Source: a virus. Taken from it: 28,136 nucleotides of DNA. Positions 5,572 through 22,575 of this stretch are shown piece by piece (position 1 is the first letter of the stretch; every line of letters starts with the position of its first letter). The translations under genes were made by a program, and so were the position numbers. The DNA is taken from IMG/VR virus record IMGVR_UViG_3300047462_000129, positions 1 through 28,136 of that record, one strand, 5' to 3'. The notes under the pieces are model-generated. The model did not search any database. It had not been told where the DNA came from and saw only the letters and a program-made list of their open reading frames with translations.

Positions 5572-5572
5572 G

Positions 5573-6046
5573 TTATTTCAAGACTGACGCTCCTTCAGGA
5601 ACCAAGCTGTCATCTTCATTGATGACGCGGCTGATATTCCTGCCTTTCGGGTCTTTCTTGTAGTTGTCCTCATTGTCTCGCGGAAGCACTTTTGTCTTGG
5701 CTTTGGCGAGCGGCAACGGTTCCAAGCACTTCTGAATGTATGGAGCCAAGTCCTTGTCGTTATAAAGCGGTGGGCGATAGCCTTGCTTCACATCGTCTAG
5801 GTGCTTGAACTTATCCGTCTGATAAAAGACCTCAATGGCCAATTCCTTCGCAAACTTCTTGCGGATATTCTGGATTTCAATCGGCGTGGCATCGGCGATG
5901 ATAAGGGGAATGGTTGAAAGCGGAGGGAATTTGTATTCCACGCTGTTCCATTTCGCCGTAAATTCCGCGTCAGTCCAATTGGTAAATCTGAAAATCCCGT
6001 CAAAATCCTCTGGCAAAATTGATGATTTGCCCTGTTCTTCGTTCAT
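5573..6046 (-). CDS. Head/tail-associated phage protein, unknown function
   Basis: A 157-residue soluble protein. Residues 14-45 read 'GIFRFTNWTDAEFTAKWN' followed by a short beta-like segment. Similar openings occur, to my recollection, in proteins encoded beside capsid genes of uncultured phages. The C-terminal third is charged and probably disordered. A structural or head-completion role is inferred from its position in the virion block. No catalytic motif is visible. Confidence 0.65.
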   Translation of the reverse strand: MNEEQGKSSILPEDFDGIFRFTNWTDAEFTAKWNSVEYKFPPLSTIPLIIADATPIEIQNIRKKFAKELAIEVFYQTDKFKHLDDVKQGYRPPLYNDKDLAPYIQKCLEPLPLAKAKTKVLPRDNEDNYKKDPKGRNISRVINEDDSLVPEGASVLK

Positions 6047-6080
6047 AATGTTGTGCCTTTCTCAGGCTGTTATTGGTTAA

Positions 6081-6117
6081 TCCGAGCGACTACTCTCGGA
6101 GGGAAATTATCTTTCCC
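6081..6117 (-). terminator. Two tandem hairpins in the gap after the 273-residue structural gene
   Basis: Two inverted repeats follow directly on each other: tccgag/ctcgga (6081-6086 with 6095-6100) and gggaaa/tttccc (6101-6106 with 6112-6117, loop of 5). They lie in the 111-nt gap between the stop at 6158 and the next start at 6046, one of the larger gaps in the structural block. Neither has a good U run on the minus strand, so they may be RNA processing or partial termination structures rather than strong terminators. Confidence 0.4.
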
Positions 6118-6157
6118 TATATAACCCACCACTTTCGTGATGAGCTATAAGGAAAAG

Positions 6158-6979
6158 CTAGAGATTGAGGAAAATCTGTCCTACTTTTGCCGAGGTAAGC
6201 GTCTGAATTGACGTACCGACATGTGCTGCCGTCGTCAGAGAAGCGACACCGACTGCTCCAGCCGTTGCTGCCGATCTGCCGAGTGGATAGCCCACGTTCG
6301 TGACCGTGTTATCAACCAAGCAACCGACTTGTCCTTTTGCATGGACGAGGCCGTATTGCTGGACTCCGACTGCTGTCATGGCTCCTGAAGTGCCATCCCA
6401 GGTCGGGGCGGTTGAAGCCGCCAAGGCATAGATGGTTACTCCGACAGGTGCTCCTGAAGCAGATGCGGGATTGATAATGACATTCGTGTACATGTTCTGG
6501 GAAAGGGAAACGGTTGAGGTCGCATCCAAAGTGACCTGAATCGGGTCTTCCAATGTGATGACGAAGCTCGCGTTTGCCGCAGCCGGAGCATTTGAAGAAA
6601 TCTTCAATGTCTGGCCGATGCCTGTTCCCGCAGAGACCACGAGGTATCCTCCCGCGTAGTAATTCTGCTTTACGACAGTTGAGCCGTTGGTCGCGTAAAT
6701 CTGCGTGGAACCTGCTGTTGCCGGATAGGCTGCAGGAACCGTGATAGCGAGATTTTCATGTCCAGTGACTTCTGCCGCTGATTGAACGAGGACTCCTTGG
6801 GTGAGGGCGACTGCGCCGTTCTGCACCAAGACGAGTTCTCGTCCGTCTGACGTGTCAAAGCGTTGTCCGACATAGGTATCAAAGCTCTGGTCTACTGTTC
6901 CGGTTCCCGTAGAAACTGAAGTAGCCTGCTTGAAGATAGCGAGCGGAGCGACTGTTGAACGTCCTGTTATACGTGACAT
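6158..6979 (-). CDS. Putative capsid decoration / structural protein
   Basis: A 273-residue beta-rich protein that is abundant in Ala, Thr, Val and Gly and nearly free of charge clusters, encoded shortly after the major capsid gene. The segment 'YVGQRFDTSDGRELVLVQNGA' style opening (residues about 36-56) and the strand pattern 'GYLVVSAGTGIGQTLKI' (around 110-126) resemble head-decoration or structural proteins I have seen in uncultured aquatic phages. Expected partner is the capsid surface. It is preceded by a 26-nt A/T-rich gap and followed by a hairpin-containing gap. No enzyme motif is visible. Confidence 0.65.
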   Translation of the reverse strand: MSRITGRSTVAPLAIFKQATSVSTGTGTVDQSFDTYVGQRFDTSDGRELVLVQNGAVALTQGVLVQSAAEVTGHENLAITVPAAYPATAGSTQIYATNGSTVVKQNYYAGGYLVVSAGTGIGQTLKISSNAPAAANASFVITLEDPIQVTLDATSTVSLSQNMYTNVIINPASASGAPVGVTIYALAASTAPTWDGTSGAMTAVGVQQYGLVHAKGQVGCLVDNTVTNVGYPLGRSAATAGAVGVASLTTAAHVGTSIQTLTSAKVGQIFLNL

Positions 6980-7005
6980 AGTTAAAAATTAAATTAAGTT
7001 GATAA

Positions 7006-8013
7006 TTAGTTGACAATGACAGCTTCGCCGCCTGTTTTGACGACTGTTCCGCCGTTTGCGACCTTGAGTCTGTTAGTACCTGTGTCAATCCATACTGCCG
7101 TAGTGGCTCCTGGAGAGAACACCGTGCTGTTTGAGATACTGACATATCCTTGCGTGAATCCGTCCATTGAGCCGAAGACCTGCGTGAGGGCTGTGGCATC
7201 GTTGGTTGATTGCGCATAGAATTGGCAGTTCGTAAATTCAATCGTTCGGTCTATTGACGTCGTACCCGCAAAGGTGACGAAGAGATAGCCCGCATTGCTG
7301 ATCCATGACCTGAATACGCAGTTGATGAATCTGATTTTGCTGGTGGTATTTGCACCTGTTCCCGCAAAATAGATTTCTCCTTGCGTTGAGTTGTCAATGG
7401 AGACGTTGTCGTTTCCGAAGATGCAGTTGACGAATGTGTTGAGCGTTGATGCACTGAACTTTACGTTGTATGCGCCTGCGGTGACTGCATCGCTTCCGCC
7501 GATTCCATAGAAGGTGACATTCTCAAAGTAATTGCGGTTTCCAGTGATAGACATGGCTCCGAAAGAAGTCGCGTCTCCTGATACGCCTCCGTAGATTTCA
7601 ATGTTTGAGAAATAACAATCATTGGCTGACAAGGTAACGACTGGCGCTACGCCTGTGGCGGTTGATTTCGCCGCGATTCGTGAACGCTGGTCTACGAGTC
7701 CGCCGATACCGATCAAGTGCGTCAAGCTCTTGTTCCAGTTCAATGTGGTCGTCTGATAGTCGGTGGTTGAACCTGCCGTATCGCTTTCTGCAATGAGAAA
7801 GATGACGTCATTGTTATTGGCTGTAGCTTGGCTGAGCGCGTGTGAGAGCGTCTTGAAGGCAGTAGACGGAGAATTGCCTACATTGCTGTCAGAACCTGTT
7901 GAAGGTTTGACATACCAGTAGTTTCCCGTGAAACCTGCGAATCCCACGATTGAAGTCGGAAGGATTGTCTGAGGGCCGAGACCTGGAATATAATTTTGTA
8001 ATAGTGCTGACAT
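7006..8013 (-). CDS. Right-handed beta-helix (pectin-lyase-like) virion protein
   Basis: A 335-residue protein with the regular rung pattern of a parallel beta-helix: 'NYWYVKPSTGSDSNVGNSPS' start (residues about 30-49, typical of pectin-lyase-fold proteins), then rungs such as 'YFSNIEIYGG', 'YFENVTFYGIGG', 'TFVNCIFGND', 'RFINCVFRSW' and 'EFTNCQFYAQ'. These end each turn with the Asn/Thr ladders common in this fold. Phage beta-helices often degrade or bind polysaccharide, but no catalytic cluster can be assigned by eye. It lies between the major capsid and decoration-like genes rather than beside the fibres, so it may decorate the head. Confidence 0.75.
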   Translation of the reverse strand: MSALLQNYIPGLGPQTILPTSIVGFAGFTGNYWYVKPSTGSDSNVGNSPSTAFKTLSHALSQATANNNDVIFLIAESDTAGSTTDYQTTTLNWNKSLTHLIGIGGLVDQRSRIAAKSTATGVAPVVTLSANDCYFSNIEIYGGVSGDATSFGAMSITGNRNYFENVTFYGIGGSDAVTAGAYNVKFSASTLNTFVNCIFGNDNVSIDNSTQGEIYFAGTGANTTSKIRFINCVFRSWISNAGYLFVTFAGTTSIDRTIEFTNCQFYAQSTNDATALTQVFGSMDGFTQGYVSISNSTVFSPGATTAVWIDTGTNRLKVANGGTVVKTGGEAVIVN

Positions 8014-8047
8014 ATTTCTTTAAGTTAAGCCTGATAATATGCCAAGA

Positions 8048-9029
8048 CTAATTGATTCCTGTGATTCCCGTAAGTACGCCTTGTCTTGATGGGTTCGTGC
8101 AGATAAGCTGACCGCCAAAAATCATGAAGCCGTTGACGGCACCCATGTTGTATGGCCTTATCCATCCTGTCCATGTGAACGCTGAAGGATCGTATTCTGA
8201 GTCTTCGTAGACGTTTCCTTCAATGTTCTTCGCTTTCGGAGATACTTTTTCGCCTTCCCACCAGTTCAATGAGTACCAGTTGAGGAAATTCGTGTTCAAC
8301 ATATAGAAGTAGCCTGTCGTGATTTTCTTGTCGCGATAGATTTCCATACCATCCCAGATAAGGTCGGCGTATCCCGATGCCGAGGCTTTCTGCGAGATGT
8401 TCATTTCAAACTCAGACATGACGTTTCTCTGGAACGGCGTAAGGAGCTGTTCAAAGTATGCCCATGTCGTGTAGTCCGTGATAATCATATTCGGTCTCAC
8501 TGGGCCGTCTGCAATGTTATTCCAGAGCTGTCGTACCTTCAAAAGAGAGATGGTTCCCCCTGATGCGGTTACGGTTGAGTTAAGACCGGTATAAGTGGCT
8601 CGTGAAAGTCCTCCGTATGAGGAGAGAACCGAGCCGTTGTCTACGATGCCTGCAAGACCCATAGGGGCTTTGCCGCCGAATGAAGAACCATCCTGTTGGA
8701 GGAAGTTTCCGATGTCGTCGGCTGCGTCCTGTGCCCTTGATTCCATCATGACTGACATGAGTTCAAGGACTTTCATATTTGTCTTGTTCGTAGAGAGTTC
8801 TGAACCTGCGAGCGCAACGTTGGTTGCGACGAAGGTCGGATAGAACGTCATATTGACCGATACAGGCTGTTGGGTGATCGGCAGAAGGTCAAAGCCGTTG
8901 AAGGCTACTGACGCGACACCTTTCTGATATTTCATCGGGAAAAGCATCTGCGATCCGTCCCATTTCTTTACCGTTTTCTTTTCAAGGATTGCGGCGAAGA
9001 ATCTGTTATCGTGCAAGATTTGGTCTACC
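8048..9029 (-). CDS. Major capsid protein, exon 2 (main body)
   Basis: This exon encodes all but the first 23 residues of a 350-residue HK97-fold-type major capsid protein; the rest is exon 1 at 9813-9883. Joining TT (end of exon 1) to G (start of exon 2) restores one frame and gives '...YLAPALVDQILHDNRFFAAIL'. Visible family features are 'GSQMLFPMKYQKG' near the start, 'RATYTGLNS', 'IITDYTTWAYFEQLL' in the middle and 'DGMEIYRDKKI' later. These match a capsid family widespread in phages. The contiguous frame within this piece begins only with a TTG at 9016 and lacks the conserved N-terminus, which is explained by the intron. It lies just downstream of the scaffold gene in the usual head order. 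Confidence 0.88.
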
Positions 9030-9212
9030 CCATTTTTGTTACTCCCATATATAGTATGGGGAGAAAACCTCTTCGGATTTTCTTCACTAGTTTCTTCTGG
9101 TTATTGCTAGTGTTCAGACTATTGCATCACCTTTTTATGGTGTTCTTTCGTTTAGTCGTTGTCGGTGCTTTCGCTTCCGAGGCGTTGTCCTCTGCAGGGT
9201 TTTCGCCGTATA

Positions 9213-9764
9213 TTAGAAAGAATTTTGCCAGCTCCTGGTAGACTTCTTAGAATTGCACGATTTACAGAGAGGTTGGATATTTTCTATATTATCCGAACCC
9301 CCGTACAATACAGCACGAATATGGTCTTTGGTAAGTTTTATTTCTGGTTCGCTTCTTTTACAACTTAGACAAGTCCAGTTATATTGAGCTTTTAGATTTT
9401 CCCATTCTCCTTTGGAATGAAAACCGCCATTTTTTAATAGTCTTACTTTCCTTCTGATTCTTTTCCCATCGTCTTGGTAATTATAACCGACAATCTCTCT
9501 TTCAAATCTTCGGTATTGTCCTTGACGATTTTTCTCTCTTGCTTCAGCAGTATCTTTTTTTCCTCGTCGGGCCGAGCCCATTTTATACTTTTGTTCTGGA
9601 GTGAAAGATTGTCTTAATCTTGCTTGTCTGATTTTTTCAATCGTTTCAGCACTATAAATGCCTTTCTTGCCTTTATTCCATACAGGATAGTTCTTTTTCC
9701 TACCTTTATGTGCGAGTGAAATTTTCAGCCGAGTTTCAGGGGAAGTTTTCTGACCTTTTCTCAT
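9213..9764 (-). CDS. Intron-encoded HNH homing endonuclease (NUMOD3 + HNH)
   Basis: A 183-residue basic protein. Residues about 3-60 contain NUMOD3-like DNA-binding repeats ('SPETRLKISLAHKG', 'SAETIEKIRQARL'). The C-terminal domain (about 130-178) is an HNH nuclease: Cys-x2-Cys (CLSCK), then KDHI with the catalytic-type His, then 'NIENIQPLCKSCN' with the second Cys-x2-Cys. It would cut intronless capsid alleles and so spread the intron. It lies inside the group I intron, and its last three codons plus stop double as the 5' strand of intron helix P3. A good promoter ends 6 bases before its start codon, so it may be expressed apart from the capsid transcript. Confidence 0.9.
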   Translation of the reverse strand: MRKGQKTSPETRLKISLAHKGRKKNYPVWNKGKKGIYSAETIEKIRQARLRQSFTPEQKYKMGSARRGKKDTAEAREKNRQGQYRRFEREIVGYNYQDDGKRIRRKVRLLKNGGFHSKGEWENLKAQYNWTCLSCKRSEPEIKLTKDHIRAVLYGGSDNIENIQPLCKSCNSKKSTRSWQNSF

Positions 9765-9770
9765 GCTTCT

Positions 9771-9799
9771 ATTGTACTAGTTTTCAAAGAACAAATCAA
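9771..9799 (-). promoter_or_regulatory. Promoter inside the intron for the HNH gene
   Basis: On the minus strand TTGATT (9794-9799) and TACAAT (9771-9776) are separated by exactly 17 bases, a near-consensus housekeeping-sigma promoter. The -10 box ends 6 bases before the endonuclease ATG at 9764, so transcription would begin at or within a base of the start codon and give a leaderless message. It lies in the unpaired 5' part of the intron. Confidence 0.55.
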
Positions 9800-9812
9800 A
9801 CATTTTTATCTT

Positions 9813-9883
9813 AAAGCTGGGGCCAAATACTGGTTTGTCGTTGTGACAATGTCCGCATTTGGAACCTGTCCATTTGGATTCAT
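9813..9883 (-). CDS. Major capsid protein, exon 1 (N-terminal 23 codons)
   Basis: An ATG at 9883 opens a frame coding 'MNPNGQVPNADIVTTTNQ' and on to Tyr-Leu-Ala-Pro-Ala plus two bases (TT). Unspliced, it would hit a stop two codons later. Spliced to 9029 it continues in frame into the capsid body, giving a normal-looking capsid N-terminus. The start follows an A/T-rich stretch without a Shine-Dalgarno, as for most genes here, and lies 32 bases below the end of the scaffold gene. Confidence 0.85.
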
Positions 9884-9914
9884 ATTTTTTTAATAAATTA
9901 CTTGATAATTAAGT

Positions 9915-10718
9915 TTATAATCTCAAATCCTTTTTCCATCCCATGAATCCAGGTGTTCTTTTTGGCGCGGCGTTTGCCGTACCGGTGCCTGAATTAGCCA
10001 TTGAGCGGGAGGCGATTTCATTCCTCTTCTGGCTGGTATTGTCCGAGCTTGATTTCTGAGCCTGATAAAGACGGAAGGCGGCATCAAAGTCTGCATAGCT
10101 TGTGATATTGCCTTCATCATCCTTTGGGGACAATTCTTTAATGAGGTCAAAGAACTCGCTGCGGGTCTTTTCTGAGGTCGGGGAGGTGAGGTCTACGCCG
10201 TATTTGTCTTCAATGGCTTCCACTTGGGAATCAATGAATGATTCAAATTGGCGGACTTCCTGATTCATGACTTTGTCTCGGTTCTTGATTTCCTCCAGTT
10301 CCTGCTTGAGAGCGTTATTCTGCTCCGCAATAGGCCCTAGAAGGCTTGTCTTGAATACCTCGTAGGCTTCTCGGTGTTCCGGCTTGTCGCCGTAAATCCT
10401 GAGCCATTCCCTGAGTCCTGGATCGTTCACATCTCCTCCGACTGATTTCTGAAACTTCTGGGCTTCGGTGAGCATCCGTATCTGTTCTTCCTTTTCTTGT
10501 AAGCGGGCGGCCAATTCAATGGCAGACTCGCGCTCTTGCTGATACTTCGCTTCCCATCGCCTGTAATGCCTGTTCTTTTTCGGCTCATCCTCTTCGGATT
10601 TGGCCTCTGAACTTTCCGCTTTCACAGCGTCCTTTTTATCTCCGAATATGTCGGCTTTGGAGTTATCCTCGGCTGGCAATCCTTTGAAAAAGTCTTCCAA
10701 TTCGTTTGTTTTTGACAT
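9915..10718 (-). CDS. Putative capsid scaffolding protein
   Basis: A 267-residue acidic, mostly helical protein. The N-terminus is acidic and disordered (ELEDFFKGLPAED), residues about 55-170 form coiled coil with runs of Glu, Gln and Arg, and the C-terminus is basic (around 'KRTPGFMGWKKDLRL'). An acidic coiled-coil with a basic tail immediately before the major capsid gene and after the portal is the classic profile of a scaffolding protein, whose basic tail binds the capsid. No protease motif is seen. The assignment rests on composition and gene order. Confidence 0.7.
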   Translation of the reverse strand: MSKTNELEDFFKGLPAEDNSKADIFGDKKDAVKAESSEAKSEEDEPKKNRHYRRWEAKYQQERESAIELAARLQEKEEQIRMLTEAQKFQKSVGGDVNDPGLREWLRIYGDKPEHREAYEVFKTSLLGPIAEQNNALKQELEEIKNRDKVMNQEVRQFESFIDSQVEAIEDKYGVDLTSPTSEKTRSEFFDLIKELSPKDDEGNITSYADFDAAFRLYQAQKSSSDNTSQKRNEIASRSMANSGTGTANAAPKRTPGFMGWKKDLRL

Positions 10719-10825
10719 AATTGTTTTCCGTACTCCTAGTAGTCGTAGTTTCCGTACTAATTATTGATAATTTCTCTTTCTCAGAGTTATGCTTCTTTTA
10801 CGCCTAGCTTTACAAAGGCAAACAC

Positions 10826-11002
10826 TTACTTATTCTTTTTCTTCTTCTCTAAAGCGCGTTCCATTGCTTTTCCTTTTTTGGTCTCTTTTGAACCTTTCAT
10901 ATAGCCCAGCTTATTTAGAGTTCCGTAGACTGCGTGCTCTCGTTTCTCCTTTGGCATATCGCTATATTCGTGTTCTAATTTGCTTTTAAGTGGTTCTGGC
11001 AT
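10826..11002 (-). CDS. Small basic protein, 58 aa, unknown
   Basis: ATG at 11002 to TAA at 10826, starting one base after the stop of the upstream 88-residue gene. The product is Lys/Glu-rich and helical, with 'KREHAVYGTLNKLGYMKGSK' in the middle and a poly-Lys end. It resembles small phage proteins made between portal and scaffold genes but I know no function. Downstream (10719-10825) is a short non-coding gap with the decamer tttccgtact repeated at 10726 and 10750. Confidence 0.65.
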   Translation of the reverse strand: MPEPLKSKLEHEYSDMPKEKREHAVYGTLNKLGYMKGSKETKKGKAMERALEKKKKNK

Positions 11003-11003
11003 A

Positions 11004-11270
11004 TTAGTATGTATTTCCTTTAATGACTTTCCCGACCTTTTTCTTGTTATCTAATGCTTTGGATTTGGCTTTTAATGCATGAGGAATTGATTTTGTAAAA
11101 TGTTTTGTTTCGTAATTTTTGAAAGGATTTGTTTTTGCAAAATACTCTTGTTCTGATTTATAACCTTCAGCTTTAACTCTTTTTGCTCTATCCCTTACAA
11201 GAGATCTTTCGGCTTTTTCATTTTGTCTTTCAAATTCCGCTGCCCTTCTTAACATTTCTGGTGTTGCCAT
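11004..11270 (-). CDS. Small basic helical protein, 88 aa, unknown
   Basis: A Lys/Arg-rich, almost wholly helical protein beginning 'MATPEMLRRAAEFERQNEKA' and including 'YFAKTNPFKNYETKHFTKS' in its centre. No known family, membrane segment or cysteine. It belongs to a run of three small basic genes between portal and scaffold. A DNA- or head-associated role would fit the charge but is unproven. Confidence 0.65.
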   Translation of the reverse strand: MATPEMLRRAAEFERQNEKAERSLVRDRAKRVKAEGYKSEQEYFAKTNPFKNYETKHFTKSIPHALKAKSKALDNKKKVGKVIKGNTY

Positions 11271-11271
11271 A

Positions 11272-11391
11272 TTATTTTAATTTAATCTTTACTTTTATTG
11301 ATTTCACTCCTTTCTCTAAGGCTTCCGACCGTGCCTTGTTTTTCACTTTCTTGTCTATCGCTTTGTCTAATTTTGAGTCTTCGTATTTCAT
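11272..11391 (-). CDS. Small Lys-rich protein, 39 aa, unknown
   Basis: ATG at 11391 overlaps the portal stop in an ATGA junction, and TAA lies at 11272, one base before the next start. The product (MKYEDSKLDKAIDKKVKN and on) is lysine-rich and helical. The coupled start and the gapless tiling with neighbours are the main reasons to call it a gene. Confidence 0.55.
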   Translation of the reverse strand: MKYEDSKLDKAIDKKVKNKARSEALEKGVKSIKVKIKLK

Positions 11392-13223
11392 GTGGGTAGT
11401 GCGTTAGTTGCTATGGGAACATTTGAGAGGGCTGCGCTTGCCGGAGGTTCCGCTAGGGTTCCAGGCTGTGCTCCTTGCTCTTGTGGCGGGGGTGCGCCAC
11501 CTGCTCCTGATGGCGGTGCTCCCGCTAACTGGGCTAATTGACCTTGCAGTTCTGGGAAATTGAGCTGGCCATAGGCTTGAGGGTTGGTCTGATAGAGCCA
11601 TGCTTGGGCGGCGGTTTTCTGCGGATCGGGAAAGTTCAAGATTGTAAGTAAAGTTTTAATATCAATGGCTTTCTGTTCCCACAATTCAAGAGCCTGATTC
11701 ATGGTGGTAATTTCATCCTTTGGCTTCATAGAATCTGGCGCAACTGATACAAGAAGCTGTCGGTCTAGGTCGGTATTCTTCAAAATGACATACTCAACCG
11801 CTTTCATCTGTCCCATGATGGCGGCAAAATGCTGTTCGGTGTAATAGACAGCGTACATCTGTACCAACCAGTTGAAGAGTGCTTTAGCAACCTGTTCAAG
11901 CCCCTCGCCGATTCCTCCTCCGATTCGCGATGAGGAGTATTGCTGGTTCAAAATCATGCCTCTGGCGGTGGTATCTTCATTGGCTGGTTCTGCGGTAATA
12001 CCCAAAGTACCAAAGGAGCTTCGCAAGTCCTGTTTATTGGTCTCCAATGCCTTGAAAACGGCATCGGGAACGCTTGGAGCGGGGAATCTGACTATGCCTT
12101 CATTCGGATTTCCTGAAGGGTCAAGCACAGGGTTGCCTTTCTGCATGGCCATAGCCGCCTGTTTTGCGGTCTCTTCGTTGTAATGGAGGCCGTTTAAGGC
12201 GATAGAATTGTTTGAGCGGTTCAAATTGACATCAATCTGCATCTCTCGCTGGGTCACGCGGTTCTGGTTCGGGATATTCTGCTCTATGAGGCCGGTAATA
12301 TCATGCGGCTGTTCCGATGAAGAGAATACCGAGAGAAATACATACGGCTTTTTCGGCTTGGCGAAGTGATTGATGGATTTTTCGCCTTCTTTTTCGTAAT
12401 TAAAATGAGGATTCTTTGATTTATCTAAAATCTTTCCTTTGAAGGTATAGAAGCAGTAATCATCGCTCCACCATTCGGTATAAGTGACGAGGGTGCCGAG
12501 CTTGCCTTCCACTTCATCGGTGATGAACTTCTCGTGCTTCGGAAAGAGGTCTATGAGTTTTGAGGCTGAGCATTGTTTTCGCTCTCCCACGACTTCCGAG
12601 GTTGAATCGCAATATGCGTCTATACGAGATGGTATGTCAAAAATGAGGTTCTTCGGCTCTACCACTTCAAGAGCTATCTCTTGGATGCTGGAGTCCCAGC
12701 CGATTTTGATGGCTCCGAGGAAGTTGAACGCCCATGATCTAGTCAATTCCTTGAGCTTCGTCCGCACAGCCAAAGAATCGGCATGGAACTGAAGCATAGT
12801 CTTCACATTGTTTGAAATAGCATTCCCTTTTTCGCTATTGTCCGAATAAACGACAGGTTCCGGGTTCTTGGCGAGAGCCGCCGGAAGGAAAGTTTCTAGT
12901 GATTCAAAAAGGAGATTGGCAGCAATAGGGGTACCATTCGTGGCCACATAAGTACCTACGCCCTGCTTGCCTTCATACCATTGCTTATTCGCTATCTGGC
13001 GAGGCTTGATTCGGCTTTCATAAGGAGCATAGGCGATTTCTTTCTGACGGGCTAAAAGGAGGAGTTCCTCATCGGAGAGGTCTAAGCTAAGCTCGTCCAT
13101 TTCTTCTCCTGTAACGCCTTCTTTGTTATCAACAACACCGCCAACAATCTTGTTAATTTTGCTTTTAACAAGTTGGGTCGGGCCGGTTACATTTAAGCTG
13201 ATAGGATCGTTGTTTTTATCCAT
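11388..13223 (-). CDS. Portal protein
   Basis: A 611-residue protein in the portal position, after the terminase and before scaffold and capsid. It has the usual portal features: an N-terminal region with 'EIAYAPYESRIKPRQIANKQWYEG'-type residues (about 63-86), a 'LTRSWAFNFLGAIKIGWD' strand-helix segment, and a long helix region ('NQNRVTQREMQIDVNLNRS', about 329-347) typical of portal stems. The last 50 residues are Pro/Gly/Ala/Gln-rich and probably disordered. Size and layout suggest the P22-like or Podoviridae-type portal group. Its start codon immediately follows a terminator-like hairpin and U-rich run, and no Shine-Dalgarno is visible. Confidence 0.8.
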   Translation of the reverse strand: MDKNNDPISLNVTGPTQLVKSKINKIVGGVVDNKEGVTGEEMDELSLDLSDEELLLLARQKEIAYAPYESRIKPRQIANKQWYEGKQGVGTYVATNGTPIAANLLFESLETFLPAALAKNPEPVVYSDNSEKGNAISNNVKTMLQFHADSLAVRTKLKELTRSWAFNFLGAIKIGWDSSIQEIALEVVEPKNLIFDIPSRIDAYCDSTSEVVGERKQCSASKLIDLFPKHEKFITDEVEGKLGTLVTYTEWWSDDYCFYTFKGKILDKSKNPHFNYEKEGEKSINHFAKPKKPYVFLSVFSSSEQPHDITGLIEQNIPNQNRVTQREMQIDVNLNRSNNSIALNGLHYNEETAKQAAMAMQKGNPVLDPSGNPNEGIVRFPAPSVPDAVFKALETNKQDLRSSFGTLGITAEPANEDTTARGMILNQQYSSSRIGGGIGEGLEQVAKALFNWLVQMYAVYYTEQHFAAIMGQMKAVEYVILKNTDLDRQLLVSVAPDSMKPKDEITTMNQALELWEQKAIDIKTLLTILNFPDPQKTAAQAWLYQTNPQAYGQLNFPELQGQLAQLAGAPPSGAGGAPPPQEQGAQPGTLAEPPASAALSNVPIATNALPT

Positions 13224-13231
13224 AAAATAAA

Positions 13232-13261
13232 GGCGGGCAAACCATTATTGGTCTACCCGCC
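13232..13261 (-). terminator. Terminator-like leader hairpin abutting the portal start
   Basis: On the minus strand a fully paired 13-bp stem (GGCGGGUAGACCA with UGGUUUGCCCGCC, two of the pairs G-U) with loop AUAA is followed by UUUAUUUU, and the portal ATG comes immediately after that U run. It lies about 30 nt downstream of the predicted start of transcription from the promoter at 13298-13327. It looks like an intrinsic terminator or attenuator at the head of the late operon. Confidence 0.7.
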
Positions 13262-13297
13262 TCTGTTAGGTTAAGGTCTTTATTCGGTTGTCCTTAC

Positions 13298-13327
13298 ATT
13301 ATACCATATCGCACTTTCATCGGTCAA
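13298..13327 (-). promoter_or_regulatory. Promoter of the portal/head operon
   Basis: Minus strand: TTGACC (13322-13327), an 18-base spacer, then TATAAT (13298-13303) preceded by TGG, which fits an extended -10. Transcription would start near 13290. The -35 box lies just past the stop codon of the secreted-protein gene. It is the strongest promoter I see in the window. Confidence 0.75.
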
Positions 13328-13329
13328 AT

Positions 13330-14004
13330 CTAATTCACTGAATTGGTGATAGTGAGAGAAGATGAGCCTTTTGAATCCGAAGCCGTGATAGTGATTGAGC
13401 CTGGATTTGAGAAGTTGAATGCTCCTTCTGCCATACCTTTCTGCGGAAGCATCCTATTGCTTGATGATACCGAAGTGATATTTGAAGTGTATGTCCATGC
13501 GAGATCGCCTTCATTCGGATAGATGGCGAAGCCCATGAGAGCATTGTTGTCCATCTTATCTCCTGAGACTTTCCAAGAGATGGCATTACCCTCGGCTGAA
13601 ATGTCGGTAATTCCGCTTCCTTGTTGGGGCTGGACGAGAATGACCGGATTCGTGCCATCGTACATTGATTGAGCCAATGTGTAGAGGTTTGCACTCTGGT
13701 CTAAAGTAACATTTGATTGCATAGGTGCTGACTGATTAGCTGGTAATTGAACTGGTTGATTTACTGGTTGAATAACAGGTTGAGTGACTGGCTGTGGCGC
13801 AGGGGTCATAGTATCTAAAAGCGTCACTTTCAAGAGCAAGAGCTGAACCAAATCATCGCTTGCTCCCAAGTCCTTGAGGAATCGGGTGATTCCATCAATC
13901 TGAGTTTGAGTAAAAGAATCCGCAAACACGAAGCCTGTGCCCATAAAGAACACGGCCGAAAACATAAACAAACCGACTATATAATTTTTCATAGGATTTT
14001 TCAT
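13330..14004 (-). CDS. Secreted protein with Patescibacteria-like N-terminal helix segment
   Basis: A 224-residue protein with a clear signal peptide: basic 'MKNPMKNYIVGLFMFSAVFF' start, hydrophobic core and a likely cleavage after 'VFA'. The mature N-terminus 'SFTQTQIDGITRFLKDLGAS' resembles the helical 'T..QI..I...L...GA' segment common in secreted proteins of Parcubacteria and relatives, from memory. Then comes a Pro/Gln/Val linker with repeated QPV, and a C-terminal Ig-like beta domain (about 125-224). It lies between the terminase and portal, where a secreted protein is unexpected. Possible roles are host-surface modification, superinfection exclusion or adhesion, none proven. An alternative start at Met5 would also keep the signal peptide. 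Confidence 0.75.
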   Translation of the reverse strand: MKNPMKNYIVGLFMFSAVFFMGTGFVFADSFTQTQIDGITRFLKDLGASDDLVQLLLLKVTLLDTMTPAPQPVTQPVIQPVNQPVQLPANQSAPMQSNVTLDQSANLYTLAQSMYDGTNPVILVQPQQGSGITDISAEGNAISWKVSGDKMDNNALMGFAIYPNEGDLAWTYTSNITSVSSSNRMLPQKGMAEGAFNFSNPGSITITASDSKGSSSLTITNSVN

Positions 14005-14016
14005 ATTACTTAATAA

Positions 14017-14193
14017 TTACTTATTGAAGAAAACCGCCTCATTTTTATCTACCTTTTTGATTTGGCCTTCAACAATATGTATTGTACATTGTCCATATAG
14101 CATGTCAAGAGCCTTAGTCTGCCTCAAAATAGCCAATAATTTGGCCTCTTTATCGCTTAAAATGATAGGTTGTGCAAGGTTTATTTCTATCAT
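14017..14193 (-). CDS. Small protein, 58 aa, unknown
   Basis: ATG at 14193 lies two bases after the terminase stop; TAA at 14017. The sequence starts 'MIEINLAQPIILSDKEAKLL' and ends 'KKVDKNEAVFFNK', a compact alpha/beta pattern without Cys clusters or membrane segment. No family recognised. Its tight packing between terminase and the secreted-protein gene supports it being real. Confidence 0.65.
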   Translation of the reverse strand: MIEINLAQPIILSDKEAKLLAILRQTKALDMLYGQCTIHIVEGQIKKVDKNEAVFFNK

Positions 14194-14195
14194 GG

Positions 14196-15800
14196 TTAGA
14201 ATGCCATATCGCCTATATCCACTATTCTAGCACCTCTTCGGTCTCCTTCCCTGAACAAGTCTCCTCCAATCTGATCTAAAGGGTCAGAATTGATGATTTT
14301 GGCCGAATCTTCATAATACTTGTCCATGCCGATATACGCGTAGACGGTGGCCAAAGCCCAGTGATCAGGCCCTTTTCTTTTCCATACCCATCTCCACCCG
14401 TACAAAGGCTCATTCTCATCAATAATCTCCTTTACCCGATACATATTGAGCCAATGCTCAAAGTAGGGCTTCCAATCGTCTTTTGTGCCATTGAGGGTGA
14501 TTTGGTGCTCATTGAATTGGTCTACGAGAAGTTGGATAATCCTGTTTCTATCAGCTAAAACTCGTCCAGCTTCCTCTCCTTTGCCCCATCGCCTCAATTC
14601 TTTTGTTCTAGTCTCTTTGGTGAACCAGCAGAGAAATACTCGGCCTTTATATTTGGCTTGGAGCTTCCTGATACCGATAAGGTCGCCTCCCTGGTCAGAT
14701 ACGAGGATTGAATTGGGATAGGTTTTAAGGAGTTTTTCTATCTTGTCGTAGGGGTCATAGCCTTCTTTCTGTCCGCTTTCTTCCACGCTTTCGCAATATC
14801 CATGAAAGAATATGCCCTGTTTATTCATCAACACATAATGGAGATTGTGTCCAGTGTCTAGTCCGATGATGATTCGGCCTTCTTGTTTGTTCACTTCTTT
14901 GGAAAGGGAGGATTCAAGGATTGGCAGAGACAACATATCGTTCGGATTCACATACGGAAGCCCTGCTACGAAGTTGTAGAAATACTCTTTGGTTTTTGTA
15001 GCTTTATATTCAGCTATCTTCTCTGCCTTGACAGAAGGGTTAATCCAAAGCGGAATCCAGTAGCCTGACCATTCGCCTTTTGAGGTGGCAATCCACTCGC
15101 CCATTCTTCTCTCTTCATCGGTAATCTCGCTATGGCAATGAGGGCAGATATAGAGCTTATTCACATAGTCTATGCAGGATTCGTCCATCACATAGGTCTT
15201 TCCGCAGTTATGGGTTATATGCCATTTCTTCTGATCCGAGAGCATCCAGAACTTGTCTACGCCGAAATCAGGTCTTGTAGGGTTAGAGAATACCCACTTG
15301 TAGCCAAACTTGGAGTGTTGTAAGCGTGAGTCGTAAATCTCCAATATATTTTGGGGAGCTTTGTCATATTCATCCGCCACGAGCATATCAAGTGAAATCA
15401 TGATGGCTGCCCGTTCTGTCATCGCGCCGAGATAGTGAATATAGTTATTGCCTATCTGCTTTTGCGTGATGCTATCCTTATCCTTCATCAGCTTTTCAAT
15501 GATGGGATTCTGCTGAGCCATACGATTGACCTTTGAGCCGACGAACTTCTGCACCATGTCCACTGTCGGCAATATGTAGCCGATGTCTATGCCTCGGTTA
15601 TCAGCCAGCCAAATACTTTTCAATATGGCCATTGTTGAGAATCCTATCTGGCCGGCTTTCAGGCAGCAGAGATACTTTGAATTGTCCCTATAAATATCAA
15701 AGAGATAGCGATGGTTCTTGAAGTCCAGTTCAGAGCCGGTTTCAGTCTTTATCTGATTGTTTTGAAGCCATGTGATTATGGAAATCTGATCTAAGAGCAT
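14196..15800 (-). CDS. terL: Terminase large subunit (GpA-like)
   Basis: A 534-residue packaging motor. ATPase: Walker A-like 'CLKAGQIGFST' (residues 46-56), a lambda GpA-type variant without GKT; Walker B 'LVADEYD' with Asp143-Glu144. Residues about 197-222 include Cys/His pairs ending in CPHC, a zinc-binding insert as in GpA. Nuclease domain: Asp315 (IIGLDTG), Asp369 (LVSDQGGD) and Asp479 (GPDHW) are the likely metal-binding acids. It would cut and translocate phage DNA at the portal vertex. Gene order terminase, secreted protein, portal is normal apart from the inserted gene. Which kind of DNA end it makes cannot be told here. Confidence 0.92.
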   Translation of the reverse strand: MLLDQISIITWLQNNQIKTETGSELDFKNHRYLFDIYRDNSKYLCCLKAGQIGFSTMAILKSIWLADNRGIDIGYILPTVDMVQKFVGSKVNRMAQQNPIIEKLMKDKDSITQKQIGNNYIHYLGAMTERAAIMISLDMLVADEYDKAPQNILEIYDSRLQHSKFGYKWVFSNPTRPDFGVDKFWMLSDQKKWHITHNCGKTYVMDESCIDYVNKLYICPHCHSEITDEERRMGEWIATSKGEWSGYWIPLWINPSVKAEKIAEYKATKTKEYFYNFVAGLPYVNPNDMLSLPILESSLSKEVNKQEGRIIIGLDTGHNLHYVLMNKQGIFFHGYCESVEESGQKEGYDPYDKIEKLLKTYPNSILVSDQGGDLIGIRKLQAKYKGRVFLCWFTKETRTKELRRWGKGEEAGRVLADRNRIIQLLVDQFNEHQITLNGTKDDWKPYFEHWLNMYRVKEIIDENEPLYGWRWVWKRKGPDHWALATVYAYIGMDKYYEDSAKIINSDPLDQIGGDLFREGDRRGARIVDIGDMAF

Positions 15801-15803
15801 GTA

Positions 15804-16004
15804 TCATTTCTTTTCTATAAGCTGATAAAAGGCATCCTGATATGAAAGATTATTTTTATCTTTGTATCGGTCTATTTCTATGGAAGTTAGAACTTTAATC
15901 TTTTCATCGTTCTTATAAACAACTGCCTCAAGAGTAGAGTGGTCTAATTCCACCTTATATCCTTTGTCTAATAAATCTTGATTTAATCTGGCTTCGTCTT
16001 TCAT
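15804..16004 (-). CDS. Small protein, 66 aa, unknown
   Basis: A 66-residue charged protein starting 'MKDEARLNQDLLDKGYKVEL', with a probable beta-beta-alpha pattern and no Cys or membrane segment. It ends three bases before the terminase start and follows the 88-residue gene by six bases, so it is part of the packaging operon. No family recognised. Confidence 0.65.
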   Translation of the reverse strand: MKDEARLNQDLLDKGYKVELDHSTLEAVVYKNDEKIKVLTSIEIDRYKDKNNLSYQDAFYQLIEKK

Positions 16005-16010
16005 TTCTTT

Positions 16011-16277
16011 TTATTGAATCTCTTTCGGTTCCCAATTCACCTTTGAGCCGTCGGTCTTGGTGCATTCAATATAAGCTTCTTTCATATCTTCTAGGCGAAA
16101 CTTTTTCTCTTCGGGCGAATCAATATCTATCTTAGTTGCCATAATGTTTTTACCTTTCCATACTTCTGGTTCATGAAACTCATCGCCGCAGAGCATATAA
16201 TATAATCCTTCCGGCATTTCTTGCGGATTCTTTACTAGAAAGACTTGGAACGGATGCTGTTGTAGATAATCATTCAT
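16011..16277 (-). CDS. Small protein, 88 aa, unknown
   Basis: An 88-residue acidic protein. The N-terminal part 'FQVFLVKNPQEMPEGLYYML' suggests a beta-rich fold, and the C-terminus ('EAYIECTKTDGSKVNW') is charged. No recognised motif. It lies directly downstream of the HNH gene and upstream of the terminase. Confidence 0.6.
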   Translation of the reverse strand: MNDYLQQHPFQVFLVKNPQEMPEGLYYMLCGDEFHEPEVWKGKNIMATKIDIDSPEEKKFRLEDMKEAYIECTKTDGSKVNWEPKEIQ

Positions 16278-16279
16278 AG

Positions 16280-16768
16280 TTATTTTTTATTATTGCTATT
16301 AAGTTCTAGCCATTGACCTGTTTTTGAATCTCTTTTAGGAATAAATCGGGGTCTTCCTTGTGCTGAACATTTGTTTGAACAAAAACGATTCGTCTTTCTT
16401 TTAAGATGGAAATTGCCTCCACAAAACTCACATTTTTTGTAAGTCTTTAGTCCTTTATTCCATGCTGGACGAGCATCATATTTTCTATGGCATGGAACAC
16501 ATAAGGTAAAATAATTACTCATATTTCTTTCGTGTTTTTTACCTTTTTTAAGAGCAAGTTCTAATCGTAAAACACTTCCACAAAAATCACATTTATCTTT
16601 TTTCTTATCTCTAAACCATGAGTGAATACCTTGATAAGTGATATTATTTCCTTTCCACATTCCATGTTTTGAGCCAGATTGATATGGGCGCGGCTTTCCT
16701 TTTTGGGCTATACTCATCCTTCTTTTGGATTCTTCACTATGTTTAAATCCTTTTTTTCGTCCTCTCAT
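16280..16768 (-). CDS. Free-standing HNH homing endonuclease with NUMOD3 and zinc fingers
   Basis: A 162-residue basic protein with an A/T-rich coding sequence compared with its neighbours. It begins with a NUMOD3-like segment ('GFKHSEESKRRMSIAQKGK'). An HNH-type nuclease follows: 'GIHSWFRDKKKDKCDFCGS' then 'YFTLCVPCHRKYD' (Cys-x2-Cys twice, His in CH). After that comes a separate zinc finger (CEFCGGN ... FCSNKCSAQGR). It is wedged between two small genes with a one-base overlap at its start and no intron signs around it, so it is probably a free-standing mobile endonuclease that cuts nearby phage DNA. Confidence 0.85.
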   Translation of the reverse strand: MRGRKKGFKHSEESKRRMSIAQKGKPRPYQSGSKHGMWKGNNITYQGIHSWFRDKKKDKCDFCGSVLRLELALKKGKKHERNMSNYFTLCVPCHRKYDARPAWNKGLKTYKKCEFCGGNFHLKRKTNRFCSNKCSAQGRPRFIPKRDSKTGQWLELNSNNKK

Positions 16769-16914
16769 TATTTAATATTAACACCTTTCAAACTCAAATA
16801 CAAACGGGCGACAGCTTCTTCGGGAGTTTCATAATGCAATCTGAGGAATTGTGGATGTTCAGTCTTGGTATCGCATGCCAAGAATCCATTGAGGCTTTTT
16901 TCTAGATAGTTCAT
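16768..16914 (-). CDS. Small protein, 48 aa, unknown
   Basis: ATG at 16914 overlaps the previous stop (ATGA), and its TAA shares one base with the HNH start. The product begins 'MNYLEKSLNGFLACDTKTEH' and contains 'HYETPEEAVARLYLSLKG'. It resembles small phage proteins with a single helix-turn pattern, function unknown. Coupled boundaries on both sides support it. Confidence 0.6.
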   Translation of the reverse strand: MNYLEKSLNGFLACDTKTEHPQFLRLHYETPEEAVARLYLSLKGVNIK

Positions 16915-17072
16915 TGTTTTGCTTGTGATGGGCTGAATACTAAACTATGCTTTCGGCAGACATTCAAGGTTGTTCCGTTCTCCAGATAATTCTTCGGGAA
17001 ACCATCGGCGAGAAGTTGTTTCACTTCATCTTTTGAGAGTTTTTTCTTTTCTAGTTTGCAGGAACAAATCAT
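16911..17072 (-). CDS. Small Cys-containing protein, 53 aa
   Basis: ATG at 17072 overlaps the DUF5681 gene stop (ATGA) and TGA overlaps the next start. It starts 'MICSCKLEKKKLSKDEVKQL' and later has 'NVCRKH', so a Cys-x-Cys plus Cys/His cluster could bind one metal ion. No family recognised. Both ends are translationally coupled to neighbours. Confidence 0.6.
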   Translation of the reverse strand: MICSCKLEKKKLSKDEVKQLLADGFPKNYLENGTTLNVCRKHSLVFSPSQAKQ

Positions 17073-17383
17073 AATGTTTTCTTAATCTTCTCTTCAGCCT
17101 CTTTTGCAATCTCTAGGAGTTTCGGATCAAGGGTGTTTATTTTTTCTCCTTGCGTGGTGATGTCGGTCTTGTTCTCAGGATTTCCTTCAGCCATTTTCCA
17201 GATGATTTCTTTGGGCAAGCCGTGCATGAACTCTTGTCGTTCTTCTTCCGGCATGGATTCCAATACTTCTTTCGCCCATTGTTTCATTGATTTAGAACCC
17301 TTTGGTCTTCCACCAGGATTTCCGCTTTGTCCTTTTTTCCAAAGCCACGGTTTGTTATCCAACTGTTCTTGAGTTTTGTCCAT
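17069..17383 (-). CDS. DUF5681-like protein, candidate small terminase
   Basis: A 104-residue protein whose N-terminus (residues about 13-34) reads 'LWKKGQSGNPGGRPKGSKS', the hallmark of DUF5681, found in proteins encoded near phage terminases. The rest is helical and charged ('EVLESMPEEERQEFMHG' and a Lys/Glu C-terminus). No other terminase small subunit is visible, and this gene lies 1.3 kb upstream of the large subunit in the same operon, so it is the best candidate for the DNA-recognition subunit. Short length is a caveat. Confidence 0.7.
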   Translation of the reverse strand: MDKTQEQLDNKPWLWKKGQSGNPGGRPKGSKSMKQWAKEVLESMPEEERQEFMHGLPKEIIWKMAEGNPENKTDITTQGEKINTLDPKLLEIAKEAEEKIKKTL

Positions 17384-17422
17384 ACCTTTATTTTACAATA
17401 AATCTAACTATATTTCAATGGC

Positions 17423-17695
17423 TTAATGATAATACTTTCCCCGTTCTATGCCAAGATAGTCTCGTATAGTGTCTCTGAGTAAGAAGTGAAATGAGTCTTG
17501 GTGAAAGTCTTGGATAATCTTGTCTTTTTCTTCTGAAGAGGCATCCTGCCAGTTTGTCTTGGTTTTGATGAGATCGGCTATGTAGTGCTCTAATGTGCTT
17601 ATTGCTTTAGAAAGAGCATTATCTTCCTCGTTAGTGAGAGTGATTTGGTAGTTTCTGGGATATGCGAAATAGTTTGGAAAGTCTGATGGTTTCAT
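17423..17695 (-). CDS. Small helical protein, 90 aa, unknown
   Basis: A 90-residue helical acidic protein starting 'MKPSDFPNYFAYPRNYQITL', with no Cys or membrane segment. Its ATG shares one base with the stop of the upstream zinc-ribbon gene (TAATG). A 39-nt gap separates it from the DUF5681 gene. No family recognised. Confidence 0.65.
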   Translation of the reverse strand: MKPSDFPNYFAYPRNYQITLTNEEDNALSKAISTLEHYIADLIKTKTNWQDASSEEKDKIIQDFHQDSFHFLLRDTIRDYLGIERGKYYH

Positions 17696-17865
17696 TAAAA
17701 TATCATTTTAGCCATATTCTTGGCGCATTTGCCGCAAAATTGGTTCTTGGAAGTGATGTATTCGTCTACCAATACTTTGCCGTCTTGTTTCTTCACAAAG
17801 TGATATGAGCGTTTTCTCACGAAGAACTTGTTTCTCTTGCAGGTTGTGCAGCGGCCGTAAATCAT
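17695..17865 (-). CDS. Small zinc-ribbon protein, 56 aa
   Basis: ATG at 17865 overlaps the preceding TGA (ATGA). The 56-residue product carries two Cys-x2-Cys knuckles, CTTC at residues 6-9 and CGKC at 44-47, around a basic middle, so it should fold around one zinc ion. It begins 'MIYGRCTTCKRNKFFVRK'. Partners are unknown; such small zinc ribbons often bind nucleic acid or RNA polymerase. Confidence 0.7.
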   Translation of the reverse strand: MIYGRCTTCKRNKFFVRKRSYHFVKKQDGKVLVDEYITSKNQFCGKCAKNMAKMIF

Positions 17866-18032
17866 GCGTTTAATACTCTATGTTTGATAAGCTGATTCAT
17901 CAGGCTGAGGGAATTGCAGTCTTTGCAGAGATAGGCTTCTCCTTCGGACTTTATGGTATCCGATTTCCCGCAGATATAGCAGGTCTTTTCCGCTATGCGC
18001 CTATTGAGCTTTTGTTCAAGTTGTGGGTTCAT
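17862..18032 (-). CDS. Small zinc-ribbon protein, 56 aa
   Basis: ATG at 18032 lies inside the end of the upstream gene, and TGA at 17862 overlaps the next ATG. It has CYIC (residues 18-21) and CKDC (36-39) spaced 14 apart, a classic treble-clef or ribbon arrangement, followed by a short helix 'LSLMNQLIKHRV'. It forms a tandem pair with the next zinc-ribbon gene. Confidence 0.7.
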   Translation of the reverse strand: MNPQLEQKLNRRIAEKTCYICGKSDTIKSEGEAYLCKDCNSLSLMNQLIKHRVLNA

Positions 18033-18174
18033 GATTTTCCAATGTCTTTATCAAATCTCCGACCAATGTGTGCAATTTGTTTTCAAAATCCTCAAAATCT
18101 ATATCGGGATAGAGCTTCTTTATCTCATGGACGAAGTTTGATTTCTGTACCCAGATTTCTAATGTTTTGCTCAT
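18016..18174 (-). CDS. Small protein downstream of GroEL, 52 aa
   Basis: The start chosen is ATG 18174, which overlaps the groEL stop (ATGA); a longer frame upstream lies inside groEL and is not needed. The product 'MSKTLEIWVQKSNFVHEIKK' continues as an acidic helical tail. No family is recognised. Coupling to groEL may mean it is made with the chaperonin. It overlaps the next zinc-ribbon gene by 17 bases. Confidence 0.6.
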   Translation of the reverse strand: MSKTLEIWVQKSNFVHEIKKLYPDIDFEDFENKLHTLVGDLIKTLENHEPTT

Positions 18175-19745
18175 TTTTTTAGAAGAATTACCGGCTTGGT
18201 CGTGAGTATCGTGGAAGCCACCGATAATGCTGTAATTATAGCATTTTTGACAACACAAGACGAGTCCCAAATACCCTCTTCGTGCATGTCTACAATCTTT
18301 CCTTTGCGCGAGTCAAATCCGCTATTTCCTCCTACGAGCTTTATATCGCATTCCTTTTCTGAGTTCTTTACGATCTGGAGAAATGGGGCTTCAAAAGCCT
18401 TTTTAAGTATCTTGCCTCCTGGAGTATTCGGTAATTCTTGGGCTATATTGAGAAGTGCTATGCCTCCTCCGGCCACAACACCCTCCTGAAGGGCTAAATA
18501 TGACGAATTTCGGGCATCAGAGGCCTTACCCTTCAAATGACTCAACTCTGAGTCTGAATTGGCTCCTAGCCTCAAAATTGCCGTTTTGGTGTTAAGCCAC
18601 GAAGCTCGGAGGTTTGAATCATTGTCGTTTTTCTCCAAAAGGGCTTTTATGTGGTCTGAAATGTCTTGTATACCTGTGATGACAGACTCGTCTTTGGTAG
18701 CTGTAATCCTATCGCAAGTGCCGAGCCACGACATAGAAAAGCCTTTAAGAGAGGTTCCTTCTGCCGGACTTATGATAATGGCTCCCGTAATCTTGGCGAA
18801 GTCTTCAAATAACCAGTCTTTCCAAAGTGTAGGAGCTTTGATGACTAAAGTATGAAATACGAATGGCTGGCCGCTTGCGGTGCGGAGTCCCATAGAAAGC
18901 TCGGCCAAGTATTGACTGACTGACAAATCTATTTCATTGCAGAATATGACAAGCTCGTTTTTGCCTGACTTGAAGACTGATTTGAGGATAGGGTCTAGCT
19001 GAGATGGAGTGGCCAGTTTCTCCTTGCAGATAAGGACTGGAGGATTATTGTAAATAGCACTTCGGCCTTTCTCATCGCGAGCCATATAAGGGTACATAAA
19101 TCCGCAGTTTCTGAGGCGAACACCACTCACAAGGTCGTAATAGGTCGTAGGAAGGTTTGAGTTGTCTATCTCCACCATACCATCCTTACCTATCTGGGAG
19201 TAAATCTCTTGGAATATCTTGCCGAGTTCTTCATTTTCGGCGGCGATGGAAGCTACCTTTTGAATGTCTGAGTATGTGATAGGTCTCGTTTGTTTGGCAA
19301 GACTCGCGAGTATGGCAGGCAAGCAATCATTCAAAGACTCTTTAAGAGCCATTGGTTTGAGTTTGCTTTTGAGTCCTTCTCTGAGAATTGCTGCACCTAA
19401 AAGAACTGCGGTCTTTCGGCCATTTCCACTGTCTTTCTCAATCTTGGAGGTTATCTCTTTGAGGATTCCAAGGCCGATATGTTCATAAGGATCAGCGAGT
19501 TTTATCGCATCTAGTATTCGTTTGCCATCATTAGTGGTTTCATGGAAAGGCTGGAAAGGAGCTTCTAACTCGGCATTTCCTCCAGCACTTCCATAAGTAT
19601 CGCCTATCTCTTTGCATCCTTTTTCAATGCCTTTTATAAGTTTCGGCATTGCTTCTTTGGCTGATAAATAGTTATCTTTCTTTTCAAGAGCGAACAGAGA
19701 TTCTATGAATTGTTCGCGCGTCTGCTGAGGTTGTTGTGGTTGCAT
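18171..19745 (-). CDS. groEL: Phage-encoded GroEL chaperonin with altered ATP-binding loop
   Basis: A 524-residue group I chaperonin, slightly shorter than the usual ~545 and lacking the Gly-Gly-Met tail. Visible family elements are the equatorial 'TNDGKRIL' with Asp73 (Asp52 of E. coli), 'GILKEITSK', the apical region with 'GGNSG'-type loops, and 'LQEGVVAGGGIALL' with Asp410 (Asp398) 12 residues before it. In the phosphate-binding loop the usual GDGTTTA reads GNGRKTA (residues 107-113), so the catalytic Asp87 is Asn108 and two Thr are Arg and Lys. It would fold capsid or other phage proteins, probably with the GroES encoded nearby. The substitutions suggest slow or altered ATP hydrolysis; this is inference. 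Confidence 0.92.
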   Translation of the reverse strand: MQPQQPQQTREQFIESLFALEKKDNYLSAKEAMPKLIKGIEKGCKEIGDTYGSAGGNAELEAPFQPFHETTNDGKRILDAIKLADPYEHIGLGILKEITSKIEKDSGNGRKTAVLLGAAILREGLKSKLKPMALKESLNDCLPAILASLAKQTRPITYSDIQKVASIAAENEELGKIFQEIYSQIGKDGMVEIDNSNLPTTYYDLVSGVRLRNCGFMYPYMARDEKGRSAIYNNPPVLICKEKLATPSQLDPILKSVFKSGKNELVIFCNEIDLSVSQYLAELSMGLRTASGQPFVFHTLVIKAPTLWKDWLFEDFAKITGAIIISPAEGTSLKGFSMSWLGTCDRITATKDESVITGIQDISDHIKALLEKNDNDSNLRASWLNTKTAILRLGANSDSELSHLKGKASDARNSSYLALQEGVVAGGGIALLNIAQELPNTPGGKILKKAFEAPFLQIVKNSEKECDIKLVGGNSGFDSRKGKIVDMHEEGIWDSSCVVKNAIITALSVASTILTTKPVILLKK

Positions 19746-19750
19746 TTAGT

Positions 19751-22304: not shown

Positions 22305-22571
<267 letters not shown>

Positions 22572-22575
22572 AGAT

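Follow-up and report, generated by a model that had tools for sequence, protein, structure and literature searches.

The head operon of this phage opens with a promoter, a short leader, two overlapping hairpins and a U run that ends at the start codon of the first gene. We propose that this unit may be a transcription switch of the attenuator or antitermination type, probably relieved by a small protein, a reading to which we give slightly less than an even chance. The two hairpins covary among relatives, the unit stands at the head of the structural operon, it co-occurs with the gene for the small protein, and among related phages it alternates with promoters of a leaderless type. A sequence-only reading of the same DNA had lacked both the mini-hairpin and the co-occurring small protein. 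The stretch analyzed, here called the window, is the whole of IMG/VR record IMGVR_UViG_3300047462_000129 (28,136 bases). Matches to PHROG identify genes for terminase, portal, major head protein and GroEL in it, and the genes upstream of the promoter and hairpin point the same way as the portal operon. The features that concern us are the following.

11388..13223, minus strand: portal protein gene, first in the downstream head operon (PHROG portal family, E 3.6e-7; start backed by alignment)
13224..13264, minus strand: terminator-like hairpin and U run touching the portal AUG (stem scan, fold energy, covariation, match to covariance model R1)
13260..13270, minus strand: mini-hairpin CCU-AACAG-AGG, whose 3' strand AGG doubles as the base of the terminator 5' arm (covariation and search-matched tests)
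13271..13291, minus strand: short leader whose last part is a conserved A/C-rich lead-in, unpaired and of the CYMAA type, CCTTAA in the window (column counts)
13298..13327, minus strand: promoter, TTGACC (13327-13322), 18 nt, TATAAT (13303-13298), with a TG-extended -10 (11/12 consensus)
13330..14004, minus strand: 224-aa gene, an insertion that separates the small-protein gene from the promoter in the window phage (ORF list)
14017..14193, minus strand: 58-aa protein, of unknown family and co-occurring with the element, the candidate trans-acting factor (clustering, HMM, AlphaFold2 model of relative L104)

Several other features of the window may be recorded here. The GroEL gene (18171-19745, PHROG match) is preceded by a short ORF that looks like GroES (19971-20228), both on the minus strand. 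Two ORFs on the same strand are highly repetitive (23997-25127 and 22305-22643), with SARSAWSAG-type repeats in one and GSGYGYGDG in the other. Inspection of the sequence also finds HNH-endonuclease-like genes among the structural genes (9213-9764 and 16280-16768, minus strand), and another upstream of the portal gene in the relative L101.

The promoter had been described as the strongest in the window. It has near-consensus boxes and an extended -10, and it shares the first rank with a second 11/12 site (TTGACA-16-TACAAT, 14108-14081, minus strand, no TG), which lies within the small-protein gene and from which the inserted 224-aa gene could be expressed. Outside positions 5000-20000 of the window no promoter-like site scores above 10/12. 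Transcription is predicted to start at about 13291, 27 nt ahead of the terminator stem, in agreement with the earlier estimate of about 30 nt. An exact TATAAT lies at the corresponding position in 21/33 and 12/27 relatives, compared with about 8-10% of shuffles. Attenuation by a leader peptide was considered and rejected because the leader, inspected by eye, contains no ATG or GTG start followed by an open frame.

The terminator-like stem consists of 16 pairs (13264-13229), followed by ATTTT and by the portal ATG at 13223. The hairpin, its U run and their contact with the portal AUG are thus as previously described, with a stem that is longer than the 13 bp given then. This is the sole strong terminator-like site found in scans of the window, the runner-up having 9 pairs. 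The minimum free energy of the leader is -27.7, compared with a mean of -10.4 for shuffled sequences (z = -6.1), and none of 200 shuffles was equally stable. A GC-rich stem with a U run immediately after it is the sequence signature of an intrinsic terminator, and the hairpin would be expected to terminate transcription. Covariance model R1, to whose training set the window belongs, matches positions 13225-13280 with 31.3 bits. A search of positions 13100-13500 against Rfam yielded nothing at the gathering score, which is 55 for the best match (17.1 bits).

The absence of a Shine-Dalgarno (SD) sequence before the portal gene had been taken to mean that the hairpin may occlude the ribosome site. 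The absence is real, and the argument fails because the window phage seldom uses such sequences: an SD match of at least 5 nt precedes only about 5 of the 45 listed genes, and most gene starts in the window are preceded by A-rich sequence without one. An internal portal start at codon 42, an in-frame ATG with a good SD, was rejected since homology reaches further upstream; in the alignment with L004, the nearest distinct relative, the portal homology (EGVTGE and earlier residues) extends 5' of this ATG.

The portal protein of L004 is 51-52% identical to that of the window phage, and a hairpin of different sequence with a U run again stands directly before its ATG. Portal-protein searches gave about 107 loci. 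In about 35 of these, in what we call the first clade, the portal or other first operon gene has a promoter, a leader, a hairpin and a U run, in that order, ahead of its ATG. The same order of promoter, hairpin, U run and AUG is present in 33 loci of a second clade, described below. This retention of promoter and then terminator in many diverged phages partly supports the earlier proposal, in which transcripts would stop before the head genes unless antiterminated. In L100, L101, L094, L013 and L016 the element, located with R1, lies ahead of a gene inserted before the portal, with the AUG of that gene just after the U run, and inspection by eye places it likewise in L096, L009/L031 and L012. 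Whether or not portal comes first, the AUG falls 0 to about 20 nt past the U run. The element is therefore tied to the operon head and not to the portal gene, and a conserved promoter and terminator in this position support the existence of a control point for the head operon.

R1 finds essentially one element per locus. Among 37 whole records there was no confident second copy, and one record had a weak extra match (E 0.66). In L048 the element occurs twice, as an inverted copy within a 4.9-kb contig that is probably an assembly palindrome. As a detector R1 is only moderately sensitive on the held-out clade, whose 53 loci gave 18 hits at E<=1; for 12 of these hits E was below 0.1. An exact-pattern scan of viral contigs returned only two contigs, both already in the locus set. 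A distant portal clade (L032, L033, L038/L040, L041, L043) has the hairpin, the U run and the AUG, and the small protein was not detected there, which shows that the terminator alone can persist. Most of these distant loci carry acidic low-complexity ORFs upstream of portal.

Many relatives also possess a DnaA-box-like sequence, TTATNCACA (with at most 1 mismatch), upstream of the portal promoter, and its distance from that promoter is roughly constant; the window has no such sequence. Examples are L101 and L100 (TTATCCACATCTTGACA), L106, L110, L166 and L172. It was found in 18/31 loci of the first clade (7.1 vs 0.9 per kb) and in 34/52 loci of the second, where about 0.19 are expected per region, and it occurs in phages with and without the promoter-terminator element.

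Directly upstream of the terminator stem, relatives have a mini-hairpin of 3-5 bp with an A/C-rich loop. Its strands differ among loci and remain complementary: CCU/AGG in the window, and elsewhere CCG/CGG, CCA/UGG, CUC/GAG, CUG/CAG, CUUG/CAAG, CCC/GGG and others. In a structure-guided alignment of 28 sequences, 94% of pair cells are paired compared with 60.5% after shuffling, two-sided changes occur at 9/9 pairs across both helices of this alignment, which was built to fit the structure, and the covariation score is 0.93 vs 0.26, a signal that is lost when the partners are slid. This alignment was padded with N and its register was picked to fit, so that it leans toward the structure, and separate search-matched tests were run for that reason. 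In these dealt-combination tests the strands were chosen freely in both the real and the dealt sets, which removes the bias of the eye toward complementary strands. With this free choice, a mini-hairpin was found in 25/28 loci, compared with 7.0 +/- 2.2 for dealt combinations (maximum 16 in 20,000). In the held-out second portal clade, which played no part in the discovery, the values were 27/33 and 13.5 +/- 2.6 (maximum 24 in 2,000). RNAalifold returned no structure from a plain MAFFT alignment because stem lengths vary among the loci. The terminator form is favored over the mini-hairpin form by 0-8.6 kcal/mol across loci, with the window at 8.6, and the mini-hairpin would therefore need kinetic or protein help.

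A source of such help may be encoded a short distance upstream. The 58-aa protein of the window has relatives mostly of 58-90 aa, whose gene was placed upstream of the element in 27 loci by BLAST clustering, an HMM detecting most of the remainder. The gene is retained despite insertions between it and the promoter, the window included, where the inserted 224-aa gene has no Pfam match and is absent from this position in relatives. An AlphaFold2 model of the family member from L104 has the order helix-helix-strand-strand (pLDDT 93.5), and comparison of this fold with PDB and viral structures produced no significant match (best E 0.58 and 0.16). Across 32 members there was no significant match to Pfam or PHROG, the best Pfam entry being DUF7706 at E 0.0013, below its cut-off. 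The antiterminator gene that the earlier proposal presupposes was thus not found as a known family among the proteins searched; the candidate is instead this neighboring gene. With a median pI of about 6.4 (medians of 6.3-6.5) and a net charge of -1 the protein is not basic, and these values therefore do not suggest that it binds RNA directly.

In the first clade the element is present in the small-protein-positive loci that were read, and six related loci without the element (L103, L109, L014/L111, L017, L021 and L049) are also without the small protein. L110 alone clearly departs from this pattern: on this short contig the element is present and the small protein was not detected. A search with the small protein led to L127, with a divergent portal preceded by a hairpin, U run and AUG in the same arrangement, and a search with the L127 portal fetched 80 more loci, our second clade, of which 52 were distinct and had enough sequence to be scored. 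There the terminator-like hairpin is present in 33/34 loci with the small protein and in 4/18 without it (P = 2e-8, relatedness ignored). A -10 box located 5-8 nt before the portal ATG shows the opposite distribution, 0/34 with the small protein and 16/18 without it (P = 1.5e-11, relatedness ignored), and its position predicts that the head-operon mRNA of the element-less phages is leaderless. This box (TATAAT/TATTAT like), mostly exactly 6 nt before the portal ATG, is present in L155, L161, L165, L166, L172, L174, L181 and L184, and also in L036, L037, L042, L045, L047 and L109. On the second-clade portal tree we count no fewer than 4 changes in the small-protein state. In nearly all of 4 independent pairs the leaderless promoter goes opposite to the small protein, and with so few pairs a sign test cannot reach significance. 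The first clade adds about 2 changes, one in a clade of five and one in L103; L105 was left out of this count, having too little upstream sequence. The element and the small protein could also travel together through adjacency alone, with no functional link between them.

Regulated antitermination is plausible, given the mini-hairpin that overlaps the terminator and the small protein that is encoded nearby and co-occurs with the element. RNA polymerase would start at the promoter and, after a leader of about 65-70 nt, would by default terminate at the hairpin and U run, right at the AUG of the first gene. As long as the mini-hairpin stayed closed, the lowest 3-5 pairs of the terminator stem would be unable to form, the shortened hairpin would no longer reach the U run, and polymerase would read into the head genes. 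The mini-hairpin would thus act as the antiterminator. What holds it closed, or modifies the polymerase at this point, would most likely be the adjacent small alpha-alpha-beta-beta protein, and its action would yield a late switch.

Next in probability, and in our judgment unlikely, is a fixed attenuator and insulator, in which the hairpin always ends a set fraction of the transcripts from the promoter and from the upstream terL operon and so fixes the output of the head genes, with no factor acting in trans. The presence of a strong hairpin and U run in every element-bearing locus is as expected for such a device, as is the retention of the hairpin by the distant relatives in which the small protein was not detected. 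However, the second conserved hairpin at the stem base and the co-occurrence with the small protein are left unexplained. Somewhat less probable again is a post-transcriptional role, in which the hairpin would be a 5'-UTR structure serving to protect, process or present the start codon of a first gene that has no SD, for instance through cleavage that leaves a leaderless-like mRNA or through control of translation by a protein. The closeness of the AUG to the U run irrespective of the identity of the first gene speaks for this role, and so do the element-less relatives with their predicted leaderless mRNA. But a U run right behind the stem is what a terminator needs and a UTR structure requires neither, and in the window phage SD-less starts without hairpins are the norm. 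We regard it as improbable that the promoter and terminator yield a free, trans-acting small RNA (about 65 nt) whose location before portal is secondary; the short distance from promoter to terminator and the conserved unpaired A/C-rich stretch would suit it, but the AUG of the first gene stays directly behind the element even after gene insertions, a placement for which an RNA acting in trans would have no need. An ordinary terminator of the upstream operon behind a chance promoter agrees with the co-directional upstream genes and is very improbable in view of the retention of the promoter before the terminator in many diverged loci, with exact TATAAT boxes well above the shuffled frequency.

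We therefore return to the antitermination switch. With a little less confidence than in the switch itself, we suggest a two-part late switch that has not been described previously, made up of a small helix-helix-strand-strand protein and a terminator with an overlapping 3-5 bp mini-hairpin, and replaced in evolution by a leaderless promoter where the protein has been lost. If this is correct, it would constitute a new family of RNA/protein antitermination modules governing particle production in uncultured phages. One portal relative lies within a contig of a Parcubacteria metagenome-assembled genome and another is a TM7 phage, and Candidate Phyla Radiation hosts are plausible for the window phage; gene control in such phages is a little-studied area on which the switch would bear. 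The small protein was found in none of 287 genomes of the phylum to which the Parcubacteria genome belongs. The element gave 6 weak hits in 192 genomes of that phylum, and these were judged to be chance because they are low-complexity and mostly pair-breaking. The analysis would then offer a concrete protein-RNA pair and a defined RNA motif for databases, and the sister phages with a leaderless-type promoter would provide a natural comparison.

Among known systems, the unit shares with LicT/BglG an RNA hairpin that overlaps a terminator, with stabilization by a protein proposed here. In LicT/BglG the protein, which has a CAT domain, stabilizes the RAT hairpin; RAT is about 30 nt long, whereas the mini-hairpin has 11-15 nt. 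The likeness to ANTAR/EutV lies in the overlap of a small hairpin with the 5' part of the terminator, which makes the two structures mutually exclusive. EutV, a dimeric ANTAR protein, stabilizes a dual-hexaloop RNA in which a hexaloop hairpin overlaps an intrinsic terminator (PMC8934654). In contrast to the two hexaloops of ANTAR targets, with A1 and G4 throughout, there is here a single 3-5 bp mini-hairpin whose loop is AAC-rich; the loops are mostly of 5-8 nt and have A1/G4 in some cases only. The small protein had no Pfam match to an ANTAR domain. Two stem-loops in a phage leader just past the promoter, with an influence on termination that is proposed here, also recall HK022 put. The HK022 putRNA is about 70 nt long, has two stem-loops and acts without a protein on terminators at least 10 kb away (PMC9378689). 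It is separate from the terminator, whereas here the second stem carries the U run. Bypass of an intrinsic terminator, the role that we propose for the small protein, is shared with AlpA, which binds a promoter element and polymerase (PMC9371919), and with Xp10 P7, which binds the elongation complex (PMC6624301); both are set apart by the mechanism described for them.

In the lambdoid pR'-tR' arrangement, as here, a promoter is followed by a terminator and then by the late genes. The lambdoid Q gene is located close upstream of its promoter-terminator, and the candidate regulator gene of the window phage is likewise close upstream. The Q protein of phage 21 binds promoter DNA through a helix-turn-helix (PMC6606751), whereas the conserved signal here is an RNA structure at the terminator. 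Nothing in the Pfam and PHROG comparisons of the 32 members, or in the helix-helix-strand-strand AlphaFold2 fold, identified the small protein as a member of the Q family. The unit thus resembles ANTAR/LicT and lambdoid Q and is a member of neither, and we file it under no known system because it does not combine all the defining features of any one of them. By analogy, it appears closest in mechanism to ANTAR/EutV, and closest in position and purpose to the lambdoid pR'-tR'/Q switch.
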